Part shown: one piece after another, positions 22,930-64,000 of the stretch | How positions within the stretch are numbered: the stretch's first letter is position 1 | Layout of the letters: every line of letters starts with the position of its first letter | NCBI RefSeq assembly: GCF_032854445.1 | Contig: NC_088301.1 | Coordinates: forward strand, 58,228,512 to 58,292,511 | Length of the DNA: 64,000 bases | Source of the DNA: Liolophura sinensis | Lineage: Eukaryota; Mollusca; Polyplacophora; Chitonida; Chitonidae | Reading direction: 5' to 3' | Translations under genes and position numbers: made by a program | Notes under the pieces: model-generated | What the model saw: the letters and a program-made list of their open reading frames with translations, nothing else | Told to the model about the DNA's origin: nothing | Databases searched by the model: none

Positions 22930-23545
22930 AGGGGCTAGCCCAGTCTCCTTTCTGAGTCACTGAAGACAAGGTATTAGTATTAGAGGCCATCGACAATTGT
23001 ATAATTTCTAGAAATCACATAAGGCAGTTGTTCGCTCTATCTGGAACAAGTCGTCGATAGTAGTCTCCTTCCAAGAATTCATATATGAACCAGGAGGTGT
23101 AAGTTCTATCACGAACGAGAAATCAACCGTTGTCTCCTTTCCAGAATTCAAACGAATTAGGACGTGTAAGGGCTATCGCGAACAAAACATTGACAGTTGT
23201 CTCCTTTCTAGAATTCAAATGAACCAGGAGGTGTAAGTTCTATCAGGAACGAGAAATCGACCGTTGTCTCCTTTCCAGAATTCAAACAAATTAGGACATG
23301 TAATGTCTATTACGAACAAACCCTTGACAGCTGTCTCCTTTCTAGAGTTTAAATGAACCAGGAAGTGTGCGGTCTATCACGGACAAGCCATCGACAGTTG
23401 TCTCCTTTCTAGAGATCAAAAGAATTAAGGGGTGTAAGTTCTATCAAGAACAAGCCATCGACAGCCGTCTCCTTTCTAGAGTACCTGTGGATTAGGAGTT
23501 GTAAGCTCTATCTGGAACAAGCCACTGACAAAGGTCTCCCGAGAA
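22930..23545 (+). repeat. 67-bp tandem satellite with dimeric organisation
   Basis: The landmark GTCTCC recurs at 23063, 23132, 23199, 23266, 23333, 23400, 23467 and 23534. After the first step of 69 the spacing is exactly 67 bp. Units beginning at 23132-23333 alternate between two subtypes: one with AAATGAACCAGGAGGTGTAA and ACGAGAAATC, the other with AATTAGGACRTGTAA and CRAACAAA. This implies a 134-bp higher-order unit. The two ends are more diverged. There is no coding capacity. Confidence 0.9.

Positions 23546-47381: not shown

Positions 47382-47386
<5 letters not shown>
43508..47386. other. Intergenic region upstream of IMPDH
   Basis: No gene recognised. Minor repeats are noted separately (44254-44401). 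A 10-bp duplication (CGGGAGTTCGGGAGTTC) occurs near 46802. The minus frame at 45392-45706 matches nothing known to me. Confidence 0.5.
44254..44401 (+). repeat. Degenerate GATGACCACTGATGATGACC repeat
   Basis: At least five imperfect units alternate GATGACCACTGATGATGACCG with GCGATAACCGCTTA-like variants over about 150 bp. It is a diverged low-complexity tandem repeat and noncoding. Confidence 0.7.

Positions 47387-47455
<69 letters not shown>
47387..47455 (+). repeat. (TA)n microsatellite
   Basis: An uninterrupted run of about 34 TA dinucleotides, about 450 bp before the left end of the DNA transposon. Confidence 0.97.
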
Positions 47456-47457
<2 letters not shown>

Positions 47458-47908
47458 CTTCCTGAATGTCATAAAAGGCATTCGACTGAATTCTTACCAT
47501 GAATATATGTTATCTTTCATTTGAAGAACTATCATATTATGAGTGCGTAAGGGGCAACAAGGATAATTTTAAGCCGGATGGGTGACTGGACGCGTCGGAT
47601 GGATAACCATGGCTTGATTTTGTTATGGCTAATCCAGCCAATACACAATATCCGGTGAGGAGAAAATGTTAGGTTCATTTTTATATGATAGTTGTTTCTT
47701 TATTGGATTGGTGTCTAACGCTGTTCACAAGAACGTTTCACCTTCGATAGCTAGGTACCTGACAAAATTCCTGACTAAAAGCCCCAGCCGAGGCAGCAGA
47801 GAAAAGAGATTGGTTTGAACATGCGATATCATTTGCCAAGGGCGTAATAGCCATTGCTATAACCATATGAGTGAAACGGATGTTGTTCAAAACAAGTACC
47901 GGTATATA

Positions 47909-48000
47909 TGTTACAGTCAATCTGTGTAATCAGTCATTACGCGTAATGACTACACAAATCAGTCATTTCGTGAAGTGCCTGTGAGCACCAGGCAATACGC
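47909..48000 (+). repeat. Left terminal inverted repeat
   Basis: Begins TGTTACAGTCAATCTGTGTA and contains the 18-bp palindrome GTCATTACGCGTAATGAC (47933-47950), then TCAGTCATTTCGTGAAG and GTGCCTGTGAGCACCAGGC. It matches the right end read in reverse. Confidence 0.9.
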
Positions 48001-48182
48001 GTAATGACTACACAAATTAGTCATTTCGTGATGTGCCTGTGAGCACCAGGCAATAGGCGTAATGACTACACAAATTAGTCATTTCGTGAAGTGCCTGTGA
48101 GCACCAGGCAATACGCGTAATGACTACACAAATTAGTCATTTCGTGAAGTGCCTGTGAGCACCAGGCAATACGTGTAATGAC
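47941..48182 (+). repeat. 58-bp subterminal tandem array of the transposon
   Basis: GCGTAATGACTACACAAAT recurs at 47941, 47999, 48057 and 48115, and as GTGTAATGACTA at 48173, a constant period of 58 bp. Each unit repeats the inner part of the TIR. The junction of successive units creates an (A/G)CGCGTAATGAC half-site, and GTCATTWCG motifs occur in both orientations. Variant half-sites continue to about 48250. The right end carries the corresponding segment only about once. Confidence 0.92.
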
Positions 48183-49345
48183 TAAAAATTCCAGTCATTA
48201 CGCGAAATGACTAAAAATCATGGTCAGGCATTACGTGAAATGACTAAATGCTATAAAACATCAGTTGAATATAAAGATATTATTGACGATTGATCATGAT
48301 GAAGTAAATCATGAGTTAAAGTCAAAAGTACAAAATGAAGTCATACATCACCGTTAAAATCATACACAATGAAAGTCTTGCAGTCACTTCACTTTAAAAA
48401 ATACTACATGTAGTTGGTTAGTATTACGAGTCATTTATTTTTGCACATTAGGCTGCTGTGACACCAGTTAGGGCATTTTTTTTTAAACACTTGCACCTAT
48501 TGGTTCCACATCTCTTGGAGCCTGCACAATTGCACCGTGCATATCCCTGACCACCACAGCTTGATTCCATATGTACAGCCTGGCGTTGTGTTACCCTCTT
48601 TGTACAGATTACATCAGAGTCAGTAAGTAAATGCTGGGGACACAAATCAAACTGATTGCGTGAAAACTTGCCTTTCAGAATCCCAGCTTTAACACAAATG
48701 GTGTACATGTCATTCTCATCACGGTCCATTATCATTCCCAGAATATTACGTGAATCACCACGTCCCCTCTCCACAGAAGAATAGGTACAGCCACATTGTC
48801 TCCCACCTTACCACTGGCTAGTTCCACACGACTCCTCTTGACCATACGCTGAGCTTGTGTCATCTGGGCAGAGCTGGCACCCTTTCTCTCACTTGAAATG
48901 TTTTGTAAGCGGCCACTCAATAAATCTGAGGATACTACAGTTGGATCATTGTCACTGCTCATTTGATCAACTGGCAGACTAGCTGCAGGTGCAAAGCCCA
49001 TATCAGTAGTTTGTGTCGGTTCCTGAGTGGTGGTTTGTGTTGGTTCCTGGGTGATAGCTGGTGTCGGTTCCTGGATGGTTGTTGGTGTTGACTCAAGATT
49101 AGAATATGCTAACACTAGATCATCTTCACTTTGCATTCGTTCAACAACCTCAGTCGGCAAAGATGATGATGTTAGGCCAACTTTAGCTTCACACCCAAAC
49201 ATAGCGGCATATGGTGATCGCTGGATTCCAGAATGCAAACTGGAATTTTCCTGAAACTGCACAACTTTGATGCCTACAGATCAATCATTTGTGTTATTAT
49301 CTCCCATCCAAGCAACAAGCATATCCTTAATGTCACCATTTGCTC

Positions 49346-49563
49346 TTTCAACAGAGCCTTGACTTTGAGGATGTCGAGGTTTACCGTGTACCATAATAAG
49401 TCTTGGCCAACTAATTTCAGTTCAGAGATTACTTCAGCAGTAAATTCACTTCCATTTCAACAGAGCCTTGACCTTGAGGGTGTCGAGGTTTACCGTGTAC
49501 CATGATAAGTCTTGGCCAAACTAGTTTCAGTTCAGAGATTACTTCAGCAGTAAATTCACTCCC
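49346..49563 (-). repeat. 109-bp tandem duplication inside the transposase
   Basis: Two adjacent copies (about 49346-49454 and 49455-49563) begin TTTCAACAGAGCCTTGAC and end TAAATTCACT(T/C)CCAT. One copy lacks a base (GGCCAACTA against GGCCAAACTA). The duplication repeats the segment from the second Asp motif to the catalytic Glu and breaks the frame. Confidence 0.92.
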
Positions 49564-49936
49564 ATAGTCGCTCTGAAGGAAGGATGGAGCACCAATAAGA
49601 AGAAAGATATACAGCAGCTGATGGGCAACCTCGGCAGCACGTTTTAAAGTTAATGCTCTCAGTATAACAAACTTGGCCAAGTGGTCCTGATAGACCATGA
49701 TCCACTTGAATGAATTTTGGGCCACAGACTGCATATCAATAAGGTCAAACTGTGCACGCGAGCCGAATTCCTTCGTGAGAATGGGACGTACTACTACACC
49801 CTTGGTACTTGAGCGCTTGCGCTTCTTCTGGCATTCCTGGCAGTAAGACTTAAAATTTCAAGAGCCTCTCGAGTGATGTTGGCACACTTTTTGTTGACCT
49901 CTCTGACCATCCGATCACGTCCCCCAAGGCCTGTGG

Positions 49937-50308
49937 CTATGTGAGCTCGCTTCACCACGTCGTGTGTATCTTTTATACTAGCATAGTATACTGGATCCTC
50001 ATCTTGGGTGGCTCGCTTTTTGATCCCTGGCTATGTGAGCTCGCTTAACCACGTCGTGTGTATCTTCTATACTAGCATAGTATACTGGATCCTCATCTTG
50101 GGTGGCTCGCTTTTTGATCCCTGGCTATGTGAGTTCGCTTAACCACGTCGTATGTATCTTCTATACTAGCATAGTATACTGGATTCTCATCTTGGGTGGC
50201 TCGCGTTTTGATCCCTGGCTATGTGAGCTCGCTTAACCACGTCGTAGGTATCTTCTGTACTAGCATAGTATACTGGATCCTCATCTTGGGTGGCTCGCGT
50301 TTTGATCA
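49937..50308 (-). repeat. 94-bp tandem repeat, four copies, inside the transposase
   Basis: CTATGTGAG(C/T)TCGCTT recurs at 49937, 50031, 50125 and 50219, exactly 94 bp apart, with only a few substitutions between units. The unit corresponds to protein around TRATQDEDPVYYAS and KRAHIA. As 94 is not a multiple of three, each added copy shifts the frame, and a stop follows in the second unit read. Confidence 0.95.
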
Positions 50309-51157
50309 GTTTCTCGACATCACCACACTGCAGTATCTCAAACCTGAAATAATACAAGAAATTTATTTAACAAGAGATTTATATAACAAACATAAATAGA
50401 TCATGCATGCATGGTTTACTTGATGTAAACTGCCAAAATATCCATAGTATATCAAAATGACCGCTAAGCTCTCTTAAATCTTAAATCAATTATACGGCTG
50501 TTAACAGCTCTGTAATTTGGCACCATATGCCTGATGTTTTTAAATTGAATAAATATAAACATAAATTTACTTTGATAAAAGGTAGTATCCATGTCTGTTC
50601 TTTGTTCCAACAGCTCTCGCTGCCCCTTTTAAATCCTCTATCATTGTGAAATACGTCTTCTTCGGAATCAAAACTTTCTCGCAAACTTCATATTTCTTAT
50701 AAAGCGCCTCTGTAAACTGGTTTTCATAAGATTCTGCCATTGTGATATCTTGTAATGGCTGTAACAGAATGATTTATGGCAAAATTCTGTTACAATGCAG
50801 GTTATATGGGAAAATTTTCAAAGTCATAGGTTTGGAGGATTAAGAAGTCACTTTGGGTATAAAGCCCCTGGAGGGAAGACACCGTTTCGGGGCTTAATTG
50901 TCATGTGCTAAGGGATTAAGAAGTCACTTGGGGAAGACACTCACTATGGGAAGCCACTCTCACTCTTAAGAACTTTTCATTGGGCGTGTTTAAAAAGGCC
51001 ATATTACCTCCGTAACCACTGTGCTACTTGTTGTATGATAATAAAATCATACTGGTATCGAGATCAAAGTAATCAGATAATAACAACATTGTCGTTTTAT
51101 GTGTTACACACATTGCCTGGTTTGCAGAATTTGTATTCAGACATTTTAAGTCATTAC

Positions 51158-51249
51158 TTGTATTGCCTGGTGTTCACAGGCACTTTACGAAATGACTGAT
51201 TTGTTTAGTCATTACGTGTAATGACTGATTACACAGATTGACTGTAACA
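51158..51249 (-). repeat. Right terminal inverted repeat
   Basis: Reverse-complement counterpart of the left TIR. It includes GTCATTACGTGTAATGAC (an imperfect form of the palindrome), TTTACGAAATGACTGA and TTGCCTGGTGTTCACAGGCAC. It terminates ACTGTAACA and is followed by the TATA duplication. Confidence 0.9.
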
Positions 51250-51253
51250 TATA

Positions 51254-52919: not shown

Positions 52920-53430
52920 ATTTAATGTAGGGTCAGGATTTGTCAGTTGTTAAGCTGCCTGAAGGTAGATTTAAGGAAAATATCTGACAAGTTTGAATTA
53001 GACTTAAGCCAAAGTGAAATGGTGTATGCTGTTAGCAAACACTTGGGCTTAGGTAATACTTTACCTATTATGGACCAAAGTGGTGATATTGAGTTAGTTA
53101 AGATTCAGTTAGAGAAGAAAAGGTTTAAGTTTGAAAAGAAAGAAAGAGAAAGAGAGCAATAGAAGAAAGGGAAAGAGAGAGGGAAAGACAGCAAGAGAAG
53201 AAAGAGAGAGACAAAGAGAAGAAAGAGAGATTGAGTTAGAGAAGTTGAAATTAGAACAGGAGTTCAAACTGAAGAAACTCTTGGTAATGTAATGACAATG
53301 ATATGGTAAGTCGTAGTCGCCAATGATTTGGTTTGGTTCGAAACATTCGATTAGTGCCCAGTTTTAACGATAAGAATGTAGCAAGGTTTTTTCTGTCTTT
53401 TGAGAAAGTGGCTGTTAGCTTGGAGTGATA
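52920..53430 (+). pseudogene. gag fragment of the gypsy element
   Basis: The open frame at 52947-53162 (DKFELDLSQSEMVYAVSKHL) runs into a purine-rich E/K/R helix that is interrupted by a TAG at 53160. Further on, LVPSFNDKNVARFFLSFEKV (about 53350-53427) is a typical capsid start of these elements, stopped by TGA. Frames are broken between the pieces. Confidence 0.65.
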
Positions 53431-53447
53431 TGAAAGATAAGTATCAG

Positions 53448-53729
53448 CTGAGGATTAAGCAGTTTAAATTCATAGGTTATCAACCTCAGTCCCTAGAGGC
53501 TTTGGAACGATACCACCAAACCATGAAGGGTGGTCTACGAGCATATTGTATGGAATATCCTGAAGACTGGGACAAAGGGATTCCATTTGTATTCTTTGCC
53601 ACTCGGGCTACTTCTAATGAGTCCACTGTGTTTAGTCCATTTGATTTGGTGTATGGTTATGAGGTTAGAGGTCCTTTAGCTTTGATGAAGGACCGTATCT
53701 TGGCCTGGGAAGCAGAAGAAACTTATTAG
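53448..53729 (+). pseudogene. Integrase C-terminal fragment of the gypsy element
   Basis: YQPQSLEALERYHQTMKGGL contains the catalytic Glu region (normally HPQSQGALERYHQ). It is followed by EDWDKGIPFVFFATR and FSPFDLVYGYEVRGPL, which continue the core and its C-terminal end. The upstream half with the two Asp motifs is missing. The frame ends at a TAG after EAEETY. Confidence 0.85.
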
Positions 53730-56149: not shown

Positions 56150-57640
56150 GAATCCGTCTTGAAGGTATCATTACGATTGAATTTGACATGGACCTTGAGA
56201 TTATAACTACAGCTTATTTGTTCTTGATCTTCTGATCATCATTACCTTTAATTTCCGATTATTATCAAAGTTTATTTGAGAATGGACGTTGGGATTATGT
56301 GTACGGTTGAACTGGTCATCGATTAACGATAATCATCATGAATGATTCTGATGGGGATCTTGGTGTTATTATGGAACTTTGTATTATTAAGGAAATTGAT
56401 CAATATAGTTGATTTTGTCTGGATCTTTCTATTTCATCAGTGATGATTTGATCATGGATGCTGTGATCTGACAACATGGATTTGATCACGGATATTGCGA
56501 GTATGGTTACGTTTGGTTTGGTCATTGCTCGGTTTGTGATTACCATTACAGATGATTCCGAAACTGATATGTTTAAACTGGACATGGATCTTCTGATTTT
56601 CGTTACGGCTGATTTAGACACTGATAATGAGACTAGTTTTGCTGTTGGTTGAGTCACAAATCATGCAATCATTGTTAGACTTTATTTGATTATGGATTTA
56701 CCTTTATGGCTGATTTGGACATGGGTCTAGTGATTATCATTGCAAAGCATTTATTTTGGATTTTGCTTATATACTTACGGTTGAGTGGGATATAAATATT
56801 TGTATTATGAGAGCGTTTGATTATGATGTGGATGTTGTCACAACCATTGCCATTGATTTACACTTGGATATTGCTATTATCAATGCAGTGGTTTTGGGCA
56901 TTATCGTGAGATTATTAGATGTATTACGGTTAATTTGGACATGTATCTGGCGATTATCATTACTGCTCAAGTTGATTTTGATGTGAATATTGAGATTTTT
57001 ATTACGATTGACATGGATATGAATTTTTCAATTATCATTATCATTATTATTAATGACTATGATTGGGGTTGGCTGGACATGTATCTGGCGATTATCATTA
57101 CTGCTCAAGTTGATTTTGATGTGAATATTGAGATTTTTATTACGATTGACATGGATATGAATTTTTCAATTATCATTATCATTATTATTAATGACTATGA
57201 TTGGGGTTGGCTGGACATGTATTAGTGATCATCATTAGGCTTGATTTCAATGTGCAGTTGGCTTCTATCGTGACCTTTGGGAAATGGACTTGTTACCCTG
57301 GACATTAATATTATGGATATAATGATGATTGAATTGGTCGAAGATCTTGCGATTATCGTGCGGGTAATACAGACTTGTGTCTTTCGATAATCATTACAGC
57401 GTATTTGAAGGTGGACTTTGTTACTATCATAATGTTGGATTTGTATCAGAATCTTGCGATCATCACTACAGTCTTATTGAATATAGACCTTGCGATTTGT
57501 ATTACTGTTGATTTGTTATGGATCTTGCTATGATTATGTCTGGTTATTTGGACACGAATTTTGTAATTATCATTACATGCGGCATAATGGGTCGATTGGT
57601 TCTTATGAATACGACTATACTTATCTGGACAATGAACAAA
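56150..57640 (+). repeat. Diverged 36-bp satellite block (GATTTGGACATG...ATTATCATTACAG)
   Basis: Many imperfect units share TTGATTTGGACATGGATCTT and GTGATTATCATTACAGTT-like halves with indels. The same unit is regular at 58190-58745. The long open frame at 56935-57225 results from the period being a multiple of three and is not taken as a gene. Confidence 0.75.
56939..57226 (+). repeat. Exact 138-bp tandem duplication within the satellite
   Basis: The segment from ACATGTATCTGGCGATTATC at 56939 is repeated without mismatch from 57077. A third copy breaks off after about 12 bp at 57215-57226. 138 is 46 codons, so the frame stays open. Confidence 0.93.
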
Positions 57641-58189: not shown

Positions 58190-58745
58190 AAATGTTTCTT
58201 GCTATTGTAATGGTGGTTTTTATTTGGACATGAACCTCCTTCTTTATTACTGATTTGGACATGGTTCTTGTGATTATCGTTACAATTGATTTGGACATGG
58301 TTCTTGTGATTATCGTTACAGTTGATTTGGACATGCGTGTTTTTGATTTGGGCATGGACCTTGTGATTATCACTACGGTTGATTTGGACATGGGTCTTGG
58401 ATTATCATCACAATTTTTTGGACATGGATCTTGTGATTATTATTACAGTTGATTTGGACATGGGTGTTTTGATTATCACTACAGTTGATTTGGACATGGG
58501 TGTTTTGATTATCACTACAGTTGATTTGGACATGGGTGTTTTGATTATCACTACAGTTGATTTGGGCATGGATCTTGTGATTATCATCACAGTTAATTTG
58601 AACATGGACCTTGTGATTATCATCTCGGTTAATTATGACATGGATCTTGTGATTATACATCATTACAGTTGATTTGGGCATGGATCTCGTGATTATCACT
58701 GTAGTTGATTTGGACAAGGATCTTGACATTATCATAACAGTTGAT
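58190..58745 (+). repeat. 36-bp satellite, regular block
   Basis: About 14-15 units of the GATTTGGACATGGGTGTTTT / GATTATCACTACAGTT type. The three units at about 58449-58556 are nearly identical. Read forward the unit gives LDM(D/G)(L/V)LVIIxTVD; the reverse strand is open too. It is noncoding by all appearances. Confidence 0.9.
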
Positions 58746-60590
58746 TTCGGTATAAAGAATCCTATTTTTTTTATTTTGTTAACTGACTCACTGTTATATG
58801 TCTTGTGAGTAAATCCATGCATAATGACAGACATTGTCAATATTTCACGTCAATTATTACTAGATCAATTTTTAAAACAAGCATCGACACAAACCACGTA
58901 AGAACGTATATGAAGTAAGAAATCAGGACGGACTCGAGTAGAATGAAGCGGTCAACTATTCTTTGTGATGCCAGGACGACACAAGAGCTGTTCAAGAGGA
59001 TTTTAATTTTCATCCAAATTGTGTAGCATGGTTATCAACAAATGTATCAGTTGCTTTTTTGATTTCAACTGTTCATATATCTAATGTGCCAATCTAAACT
59101 CTTCACAAATCCAGTGTGACAATATGAGTCAACAAAATGAATGTATAGCCTCTAGCCTGGGTTAAGCGGAATTAGACAGTTATGAAACAGAGTGCCAGAT
59201 TCTGGACATTTTCCATGTTTATGTACAGAATAATTATACTCATTGTAAAGTATAATTATATTTTTAATTCAGGCCCAGATAACAAGTAACAAAACAAAAT
59301 ACTACTGACTGACGCACAATGAAGAATGAAGCAGAACCGTAAGCTTATTCCATCACGGTACATGGCGCGCCATGGGCACAAAGGTACTATATTACACAAA
59401 ATACAAGACATCCTTATTTTTGTTTACCATCAGTACGCCTACCATCAGAACAGTTGAGGAAATGGCGCAGATAATTCAATTATTGCCGTAGAAGGGGCAT
59501 GTATAGATTTACGGGGAGATGGCAAATCGTCAAACGTAATCGTTGAAACAAGGCCTCTTGTGGGTTTACCTGATGCATTTAGGGTTTCATCTAACTAATT
59601 TAATGCTTAAATACTAGCAACCAACACACCCCCTTGCTCCGAGACTTACAATGCATTAAAGGCCGTCGGTCTAGAATTATTCGAATGCTGAGTGGTCATC
59701 ACATTCGATAGTGCATCCGAGGTTCTTGGTCCATCAGCATTAATTATTCAAAAGTCGGTGGTTTCTCCGGTAACTCCGGCTTCCTCCGACACACTCACCA
59801 GATCGGAATGAGATCTCTTTCATTATTCTTCCCCAGCTTATAATTAGCTTTGAGAAATACAAAGCTGTACTCTTTCCATTTATTAACCTGGAACTCGGTC
59901 TTTTAGGTCGTGCTGTCGTCAACACGTAAAAGATGAATACGCTACAAAACCCAGTGTCCTTTAAACCCGAACGAAGTAATTCTGTCTTCGTATTTCCTAT
60001 TTTTTTATTAGTGACAGACTTAATCCTGTGTAACAAAAGCAACAAACATTGCTGGTTTCCTAGGGACTAACGTTGGAAATATTACAGGACAATTTATCAT
60101 TGGTAATGTATGTCAGACTAATTAGGTGTAGGGAAATGGAATGTGTTTTTATTTCTAAACTTTGGTATAGATAGACTAATACGGCTACTGGCCAAATCAG
60201 ACAGTTCCGATGACACATTGTAAGTAAAAATATTCTCGATTTTTTTTATACATTTGCCATAATGTAATCAGTTTCGTCACCCCCATTCACCCCTTAAAAT
60301 TATCAGTAAGTTTTTTTATGGCAGCTACATGTACGTCTTCTGTAACTGCAGATGATTACAATCTATGCGTCAAAACAGACATTCGTGTACCAGCCGTCGA
60401 CCAATAAGGATGTTCCAGGTAATCCCAGATAGGATATTTAGATGGGTACCATATGGACGTGATCTGGATATCTTGGCAGGGGTTTGCCCAGGTGTATGAA
60501 ATATTCAGCATACAGCATATCTATCTTTATGGTAGATTAATGAAATCAGAGAAACGGGTTTAAATACATGTATATCTGACACCCGTATAC
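58746..60590. other. Intergenic, nothing recognised
   Basis: Only a 14-bp palindrome CATGGCGCGCCATG at 59361-59374 stands out. The minus frame at 59740-60045 matches no family I know. Confidence 0.5.
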
Positions 60591-62890: not shown

Positions 62891-64000
62891 GGCTCGTTAG
62901 CTACCTTTGCTGGGCCAGCCAGACTTACAGGCCTATCAGCGATGGAGACTGGAAGGGCTCGTCAGCTACCTTTACTAGGCCAGCCAGACTTACAGGCCTG
63001 TCAGTGATGGAGACTGGAAAGGCTCGTCAGCTACCTTTGCTAGGCCAGCCAGACTTACAGGCCTATCAGCGATGGAGACTGGAAGGGCTCGTCATCTACC
63101 TTTGCTAGGCCAGCCAGACTTACAGGCCTGTCAGCGATGGAGACTGGAAGGGCTCGTCAGCTACCTTTGCTAGGCCAGCCAGACTTACAGGCCTGTCAGC
63201 GATGGAGACTGGAAGGGCTCGTCAGCTACCTTTGCTAGGCCAGCCAGACTTACAGGCCTGTCAGCGATGGAAACTGGAAGGGCTCGTCAGCTACCTTTGC
63301 TAGGCCAGCCAGACTTACAGGCCTATCAGTGATGGAGACTGGAAGGGCTCGTCAGCTACCTTTGCTAGGCCAGCCAGACTTACAGGCCTTTCAGCGATGG
63401 AGACTGGAAGGGCTCGTCAGCTACCTTTGCTAGGCCAGCCAGACTTACAGGCCTTTCAGCGATGGAGACTGGAAAGGCTCGTCAGCTACCTTTGCTAGGC
63501 CAGCCAGACTTACAGGCCTGTCAGCGATGGAGACTGGAAGGGCTCGTCAGCTACCTTTGCTAGGCCAGCCAGACTTACAGGCCTGTCAGCGATGGAGACT
63601 GGAAGGGCTCGTCAGCTACCTTTGCTAGGCCAGCCAGACTTACAGGCCTGTCAGCGATGGAGACTGGAAGGGCTCGTCAGCTACCTTTGCTAGGCCAGCC
63701 AGACTTACAGGCCTGTCAGCGATGGAGACTGGAAGGGCTCGTCAGCTACCTTTGCTAGGCCAGCCAGACTTACAGGCCTGTCAGCGATAGAGACTGGAAG
63801 GGCTCGTCAGCTACCTTTGCTAGGCCAGCCAGACTTACAGGCCTGTCAGCGATGGAAACTGGAAGGGCTCGTCAGCTACCTTTACTAGGCCAGCCAGACT
63901 TACAGGCCTATCAGCGATGGAGACTGGAAGGGCTCGTCAGCTACCTTTGCTAGGCCAGCCAGACTTACAGGCCTTTCAGCGATGGAGACTGGAAGGGCTC
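62891..64000 (+). repeat. 65-bp minisatellite, about 17 units, runs off window
   Basis: GGCTCGTCAGCTACC recurs every 65 bp from 62891 (then 62956, 63021 and onward) to the last base. Units are nearly identical, differing at a few fixed positions (CCTGTCAGC/CCTATCAGC/CCTTTCAGC; TTTGC/TTTAC; GGAAGG/GGAAAG). The first unit (CTCGTTAGC, GCTGGGCC) is the most diverged. 65 is not a multiple of three and each unit carries an in-frame TAG in one phase, so it does not code. Confidence 0.97.

Follow-up and report, generated by a model that had tools for sequence, protein, structure and literature searches.

An inserted copy of a probable Ginger2/TDD DNA transposon with a broken transposase gene in Liolophura sinensis

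Analysis of a 64,000-base window (the whole stretch of Liolophura sinensis DNA considered here) indicated that positions 47909-51249 are very probably a single inserted copy of a Ginger2/TDD cut-and-paste DNA transposon that is no longer self-sufficient. This 3,341-bp element has TGT...ACA ends, and its ends, its target and the type of its integrase gene fit the published description of Ginger2. It adds one well-delimited Ginger2-type copy for which both the insertion site and a predicted intron can be specified. The copy is an ordinary member of the Ginger2 family, in which a CXC-like protein tail and arrays of palindromes in the ends merit a comparative look.

Element boundaries and insertion site

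The element is bounded by two terminal inverted repeats of 101 bp, at 47909-48009 (+) and 51149-51249 (-), which match at 95 of 101 positions (99 of 105 when the flanking TATA is included). Outside these repeats, identity per 20 bp drops sharply from 18-20 to 2-10. Among exact inverted matches whose arms lie 200-6000 bp from each other, the longest measured 36 bp, whereas 40 dinucleotide shuffles of the window gave a mean of 14.5 and a maximum of 17. The only two exact copies of the end sequence TGTTACAGTCAATC in the 64-kb window are those at the element ends, one at 47909-47922 (+) and the other, in reverse complement, with its last base at 51249; inclusion of matches with 2-3 mismatches raised the total to 15 against 10.4 expected, which places the 13 inexact matches at chance level. 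Both termini read TGTTA and thus conform to TGTNR.

On either side of the element the sequence reads TATA (47905-47908 and 51250-51253), a presumed target duplication, and the chance of equal 4-mers flanking both ends is 0.004 at the local composition. The insertion context, A-TATA-C, matches RTATAY in this single copy, but because TATA is palindromic, the copy taken alone is compatible with a 4-bp duplication, a 2-bp duplication or a longer inverted repeat. RTATAY sites number 176 on the + strand of the 64,000-base window. Joining the two flanks into an empty site gives ...ACCGGTATATA|CATGTAG..., and an empty allele would be expected to read ...GGTATATACATG... across the site. An earlier note on this DNA had taken TGTTACAGTCAATC and its reverse complement as terminal inverted repeats, flanked on both sides by TATA and enclosing a minus-strand integrase-like gene, and these observations are confirmed here. 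A (TA)n run of 37.5 copies lies ~450 bp to the left of the element (47382-47455); although Ginger2 favours TATA sites, the element is not inserted in it.

The transposase gene and its integrase core

The gene between the repeats lies on the minus strand and extends from an ATG at 50740 to the last stop of its tail frame (48448-50740). A 227-bp GT-AG intron is predicted at 50344-50570 (-), whose exons join in frame. An integrase core piece with presumed D, D and E residues lies at 49432-49857 (-). In a single frame, this piece matched foamy-virus integrase with E=2.4e-4. For a joined reading of pieces across the breaks, the match to the same protein covered 230 residues (E=1.5e-11) and paired the D, D and E positions with columns that we take to be the catalytic residues of the viral enzyme. 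The Pfam scores were below gathering scores throughout, both for single pieces (rve, E=0.012; rve_3, E=0.004) and for the joined reading, which was weaker (0.04 and 0.097, respectively). Inspection of the H2C2 finger region by eye revealed one His and a CxxC, with Leu at the position of the second His, and neither the gene pieces nor the joined reading matched PF17921 (H2C2). Alignment-free AlphaFold modelling of the core piece failed (pLDDT 40.4, pTM 0.27). A viral glycoprotein model that matched the C-terminal piece at E=0.23 was dismissed as chance. A 24-bp minisatellite of 3.5 copies (49006-49088, -) lies inside the transposase frame and encodes a Thr/Gln/Pro-rich linker.

The gene is interrupted in several ways. 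Four copies of a 94-bp unit at 49934-50307 (-) form an array that disrupts the frame, its period not being divisible by three. A 109/110-bp tandem duplication occupies the core region at 49346-49565 (-; repeat families D5 and D7), while further lesions comprise a stop at 49281-49283 and frame changes at three places, one near 49.86 kb, one between 48735 and 48807 and one in the tail, at a run of nine A (A9). Given the array, the duplication, the stop and the frame changes, this copy is not expected to encode a functional enzyme in its present state. The internal tandem duplications may have arisen from replication slippage or from gap repair after excision. The element had previously been described as almost complete, which holds for the DNA ends and fails for the gene. 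Since both ends are kept, an enzyme supplied from elsewhere could in principle still move this copy.

Assignment to Ginger2 and alternative origins

In the available text of the paper by Bao, Kapitonov and Jurka (2010; PMC2836005), Ginger2 elements are described with TGTNR ends, inverted repeats of ~50-180 bp, 4-bp duplications in RTATAY, and an integrase-type transposase in which an H2C2 finger is present and GPY/F and YPYY are absent. Ginger1 is characterised there by CCGG or CCGT duplications and GPY/F, with OTU or Ulp1 domains in all listed families except one. The 101-bp repeats and the length of 3,341 bp both fall inside the published Ginger2 ranges, full-length entries in Table 2 of PMC2836005 spanning 2,751-6,676 bp. 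GP[YF] was absent from all seven gene pieces, and none of the seven gave a Pfam match to OTU, Ulp1 or PHD at E<=1, in a gene that is broken. A contiguous [YF]P[YF][YF] was likewise found in 0/7 pieces, although this pattern covers contiguous residues only and the spacing within YPYY may differ. The TGTTA ends, the 101-bp repeats, the A-TATA-C site and the lack of both GP[YF] and OTU, Ulp1 or PHD matches argue for Ginger2 rather than Ginger1. These features support the earlier label of a GINGER-like element, and TATA within RTATAY together with the missing Ginger1 motifs and domains allows the more precise assignment to Ginger2/TDD.

The copy shares with the Ginger2/TDD elements of PMC2836005 their TGTNR ends, inverted-repeat length, RTATAY duplication, DDE integrase core and lack of GPY/F, and differs from the full-length entries in being broken. 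A Cys-rich C-terminal module and palindrome arrays are not described in the accessible part of that paper, which may reflect a missing description and not a difference. Ginger2-like sequences have also been reported in sesarmid endogenous nimaviruses (PMC10871703), where, in the passages available, Ginger2 elements are termed intron-containing and a Ginger2-like integrase is tied to (AT/TA)n insertion. An intron-containing Ginger2-like integrase, inverted terminal repeats and AT/TA insertion are thus common to both systems, but the nimavirus integrase belongs to a viral genome hundreds of kb long whose repeats measure 46 bp, as opposed to a 3,341-bp element (PMC10871703). A motif in common with the nimavirus inverted repeat was considered and rejected, as the longest shared word was 8 bp and 84/1000 shuffles reached at least 8.

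Three other origins were weighed against a Ginger2 copy. An element of Ginger1, or of a lineage intermediate between Ginger1 and Ginger2, that had inserted at an unusual site would belong to the same superfamily and would share TGTNR ends; there is even a CCGG close to the left end, at 47899-47902. This CCGG neither adjoins the end nor recurs on the right, and in place of a CCGG or CCGT duplication, TATA is found at both ends. Extra domains could have been lost from a broken gene, and one listed Ginger1 family also has no OTU, Ulp1 or PHD (as given in the text available from PMC2836005), but the lack of GPY/F together with the lack of matches to these three domains makes this origin very unlikely. 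It is slightly harder still to sustain a chimera, in which inverted repeats from another superfamily, one that targets TA or TATA, surround an unrelated integrase-derived gene or host pseudogene. A palindromic TATA in a single copy is compatible with a 2-bp TA target, and the available part of PMC3257199 includes KRBA2 and SCAND3 among host genes derived from rve. Against this, the ends, the target and the type of integrase gene jointly match Ginger2, and most of the space between the ends is taken up by the gene.

The remaining candidate, the remains of a Gypsy-type LTR retrotransposon in which part of an integrase lies between two inverted solo LTRs, is the least probable and can almost be set aside. 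Integrase homology and TGT...ACA ends are both common to Gypsy, and two opposed LTRs have been floated as the origin of Ginger1 in the consulted text of PMC2836005. The gene nevertheless has its own ATG, a predicted intron and a stop inside the repeats, GPY/F is absent, and the terminal repeats are inverted, where an LTR retrotransposon would have direct long terminal repeats. The search for a reverse transcriptase covered the seven gene pieces with Pfam.

Relatives of the Ginger2-like copy were sought by pattern and protein searches. Pattern scans of viral_contigs gave 0 matches each for the end sequence, HPQSQGSVERAN and a subterminal unit, and a pattern scan of genome_contigs also gave 0 matches. 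Looser patterns yielded 16 loci (HPQSQG..ER) and 35 loci (W....YQDH). When all 51 were compared with the seven gene pieces by tblastn, 15 reached E<=0.01, consisting of 15/16 from the first pattern and 0/35 from the second. The best match had E=5.2e-6 over 25 amino acids (8.9e-5 over 54 amino acids for the joined reading), and the matches were short and centred on the motif used to choose the loci. The matches resemble bacterial IS3-type transposases. No relative emerged from protein scans of viral_contigs (33 and 1 pattern stretches) or genome_contigs (35 stretches), and tblastn of the core piece had no match in phages or plasmids. Overall, no close relative was found beyond short integrase-core similarities; the collections covered were viral, prokaryotic, phage and plasmid, so for eukaryotes this absence carries little weight.

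The Cys-rich tail and the palindromes of the ends

The gene ends in a Cys-rich, CXC-like tail at 48437-48534 (-), whose first half lies in the gene frame (48487-48534) and whose second half lies in another frame beyond the A9 run (48437-48475). The peptide quoted in the earlier note as a C-terminal CXC-like module, GYARCNCAGSKRCGTNRCKC, is present in the minus-strand gene pieces. Across six frames of the window, CNCAGSKRCGTNRCKC is the sole match to the first-half CXC consensus CX[C/H]X2-13CX4-7CXC, as this is given in the available text of PMC3447885. Just past the A9 run, a different frame reads CPNWCHSSLMCKN, which has Cys spacing like that of the second half of a CXC domain and ends CXN. 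Nine ligands in one frame ending CXN are not found here, with the second half out of frame and without Cys-8. A second-half pattern, relaxed so as not to demand Cys-8 and selected after inspection of the sequence, had 8 occurrences when the entire window was read in six frames, and appeared in one frame in 12/200,000 letter shuffles of the 56-base segment. The in-frame part of the tail had no Pfam match, and the only solved-structure match of the tail piece at E<=1, chorismate lyase (E=0.81), was taken as chance.

Compared with the CXC domains of MSL2 and tesmin/TSO1, as far as these are set out in the accessible text of PMC3447885, the first five Cys fit the consensus and the other-frame continuation ends CXN, whereas the tail is split over two frames, lacks Cys-8, has a His after Cys-7 and has a linker after Cys-5 that is shorter than the published X5-60. 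The proposed module is real and CXC-like, yet divided between frames and not a full CXC match; the sequence is most simply explained by an ancestral CXC-like module that was encoded in a single frame. Such a module might mark a distinct lineage, as the earlier note suggested. Similar tails presumably occur in invertebrate proteins annotated as KRBA2-like. KRBA2 is among the expanded gene families of a vent snail in the available part of a mollusc genome paper (PMC7895826), which would fit transposon genes carried under that name, although this is a lead only. In the literature passages retrieved, no description of a Ginger element with a Cys-rich, CXC or palindrome feature was found, no such feature was described for Ginger2 in connection with repeats or molluscs, and no passage on KRBA2 or SCAND3 linked KRBA2 to Ginger2. 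A literature search by motif letters found nothing.

Both ends carry arrays of palindromic 20-bp units. The left array (47932-48245) has 11 units, ten spaced 29 bp apart and the last 33 bp on, while the right array has three units 29 bp apart at 51149-51226, within the right terminal repeat. On a grid set by eye, each unit forms 6 to 10 of 10 self-complementary pairs, and 5/14 units reach at least 8; a scan of both end regions at this threshold returned those five and one off-grid 20-mer (51033-51052). When up to 3 mismatches were allowed, the consensus palindrome was matched 19 times in the window, both strands counted, against 0.02 expected, and 18 of these matches represent 9 places in the element ends counted on both strands. 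A 58-bp tandem repeat of 4.4 copies (95% matches) runs inside the left array. The palindromic units are good candidates for transposase binding sites. TTYGAA is a LIN54-type motif; it occurs in neither array and at one place in the whole element, so LIN54-type sites were rejected for these arrays. The Tetris foldback element of Drosophila virilis also has inverted repeats with internal tandem repeats, but its units are ~220 bp and it is apparently nonautonomous (in the text available from PMC4079207), as opposed to 29/58-bp palindromic units around a transposase gene.

In intact relatives, the gene would be spliced to give an integrase-type transposase with an H2C2 finger, a DDE core and a CXC-like tail that may bind zinc. 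This enzyme would bind the palindrome arrays inside the inverted repeats and cut at TGT...ACA, and the ends would be joined across 4 bp within an RTATAY site, so that each flank keeps a TATA. A CXC-like tail paired with end palindromes could help to explain how integrase-type transposases recognise their ends. A more specific proposal, which we consider doubtful, is that a Ginger2 lineage uses a C-terminal CXC-type zinc module to read phased 20-bp palindromes at 29-bp spacing, with arrays that expand and contract (11 on the left, 3 on the right) to tune binding and whose tandem growth seeds satellite DNA.

Several further features were recorded elsewhere in the window. A fragment at 53382-53729 (+) resembles the later part of a Ty3/Gypsy integrase, with matches to Ty3 Gag-Pol (E=0.026), a retroviral-type integrase (E=0.021) and PFV integrase (E=0.029) and no Pfam match, and is probably a separate retrotransposon remnant. 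Tandem repeats comprise a 67/134-bp array at 23036-23524, 36-bp arrays (2.4 and 11.2 copies) together with a 138-bp array (2.2 copies) at 58251-58747 and 56936-57237, and a 65-bp satellite of 17.1 copies with 97% matches at 62891-64000, which runs to the end of the window.
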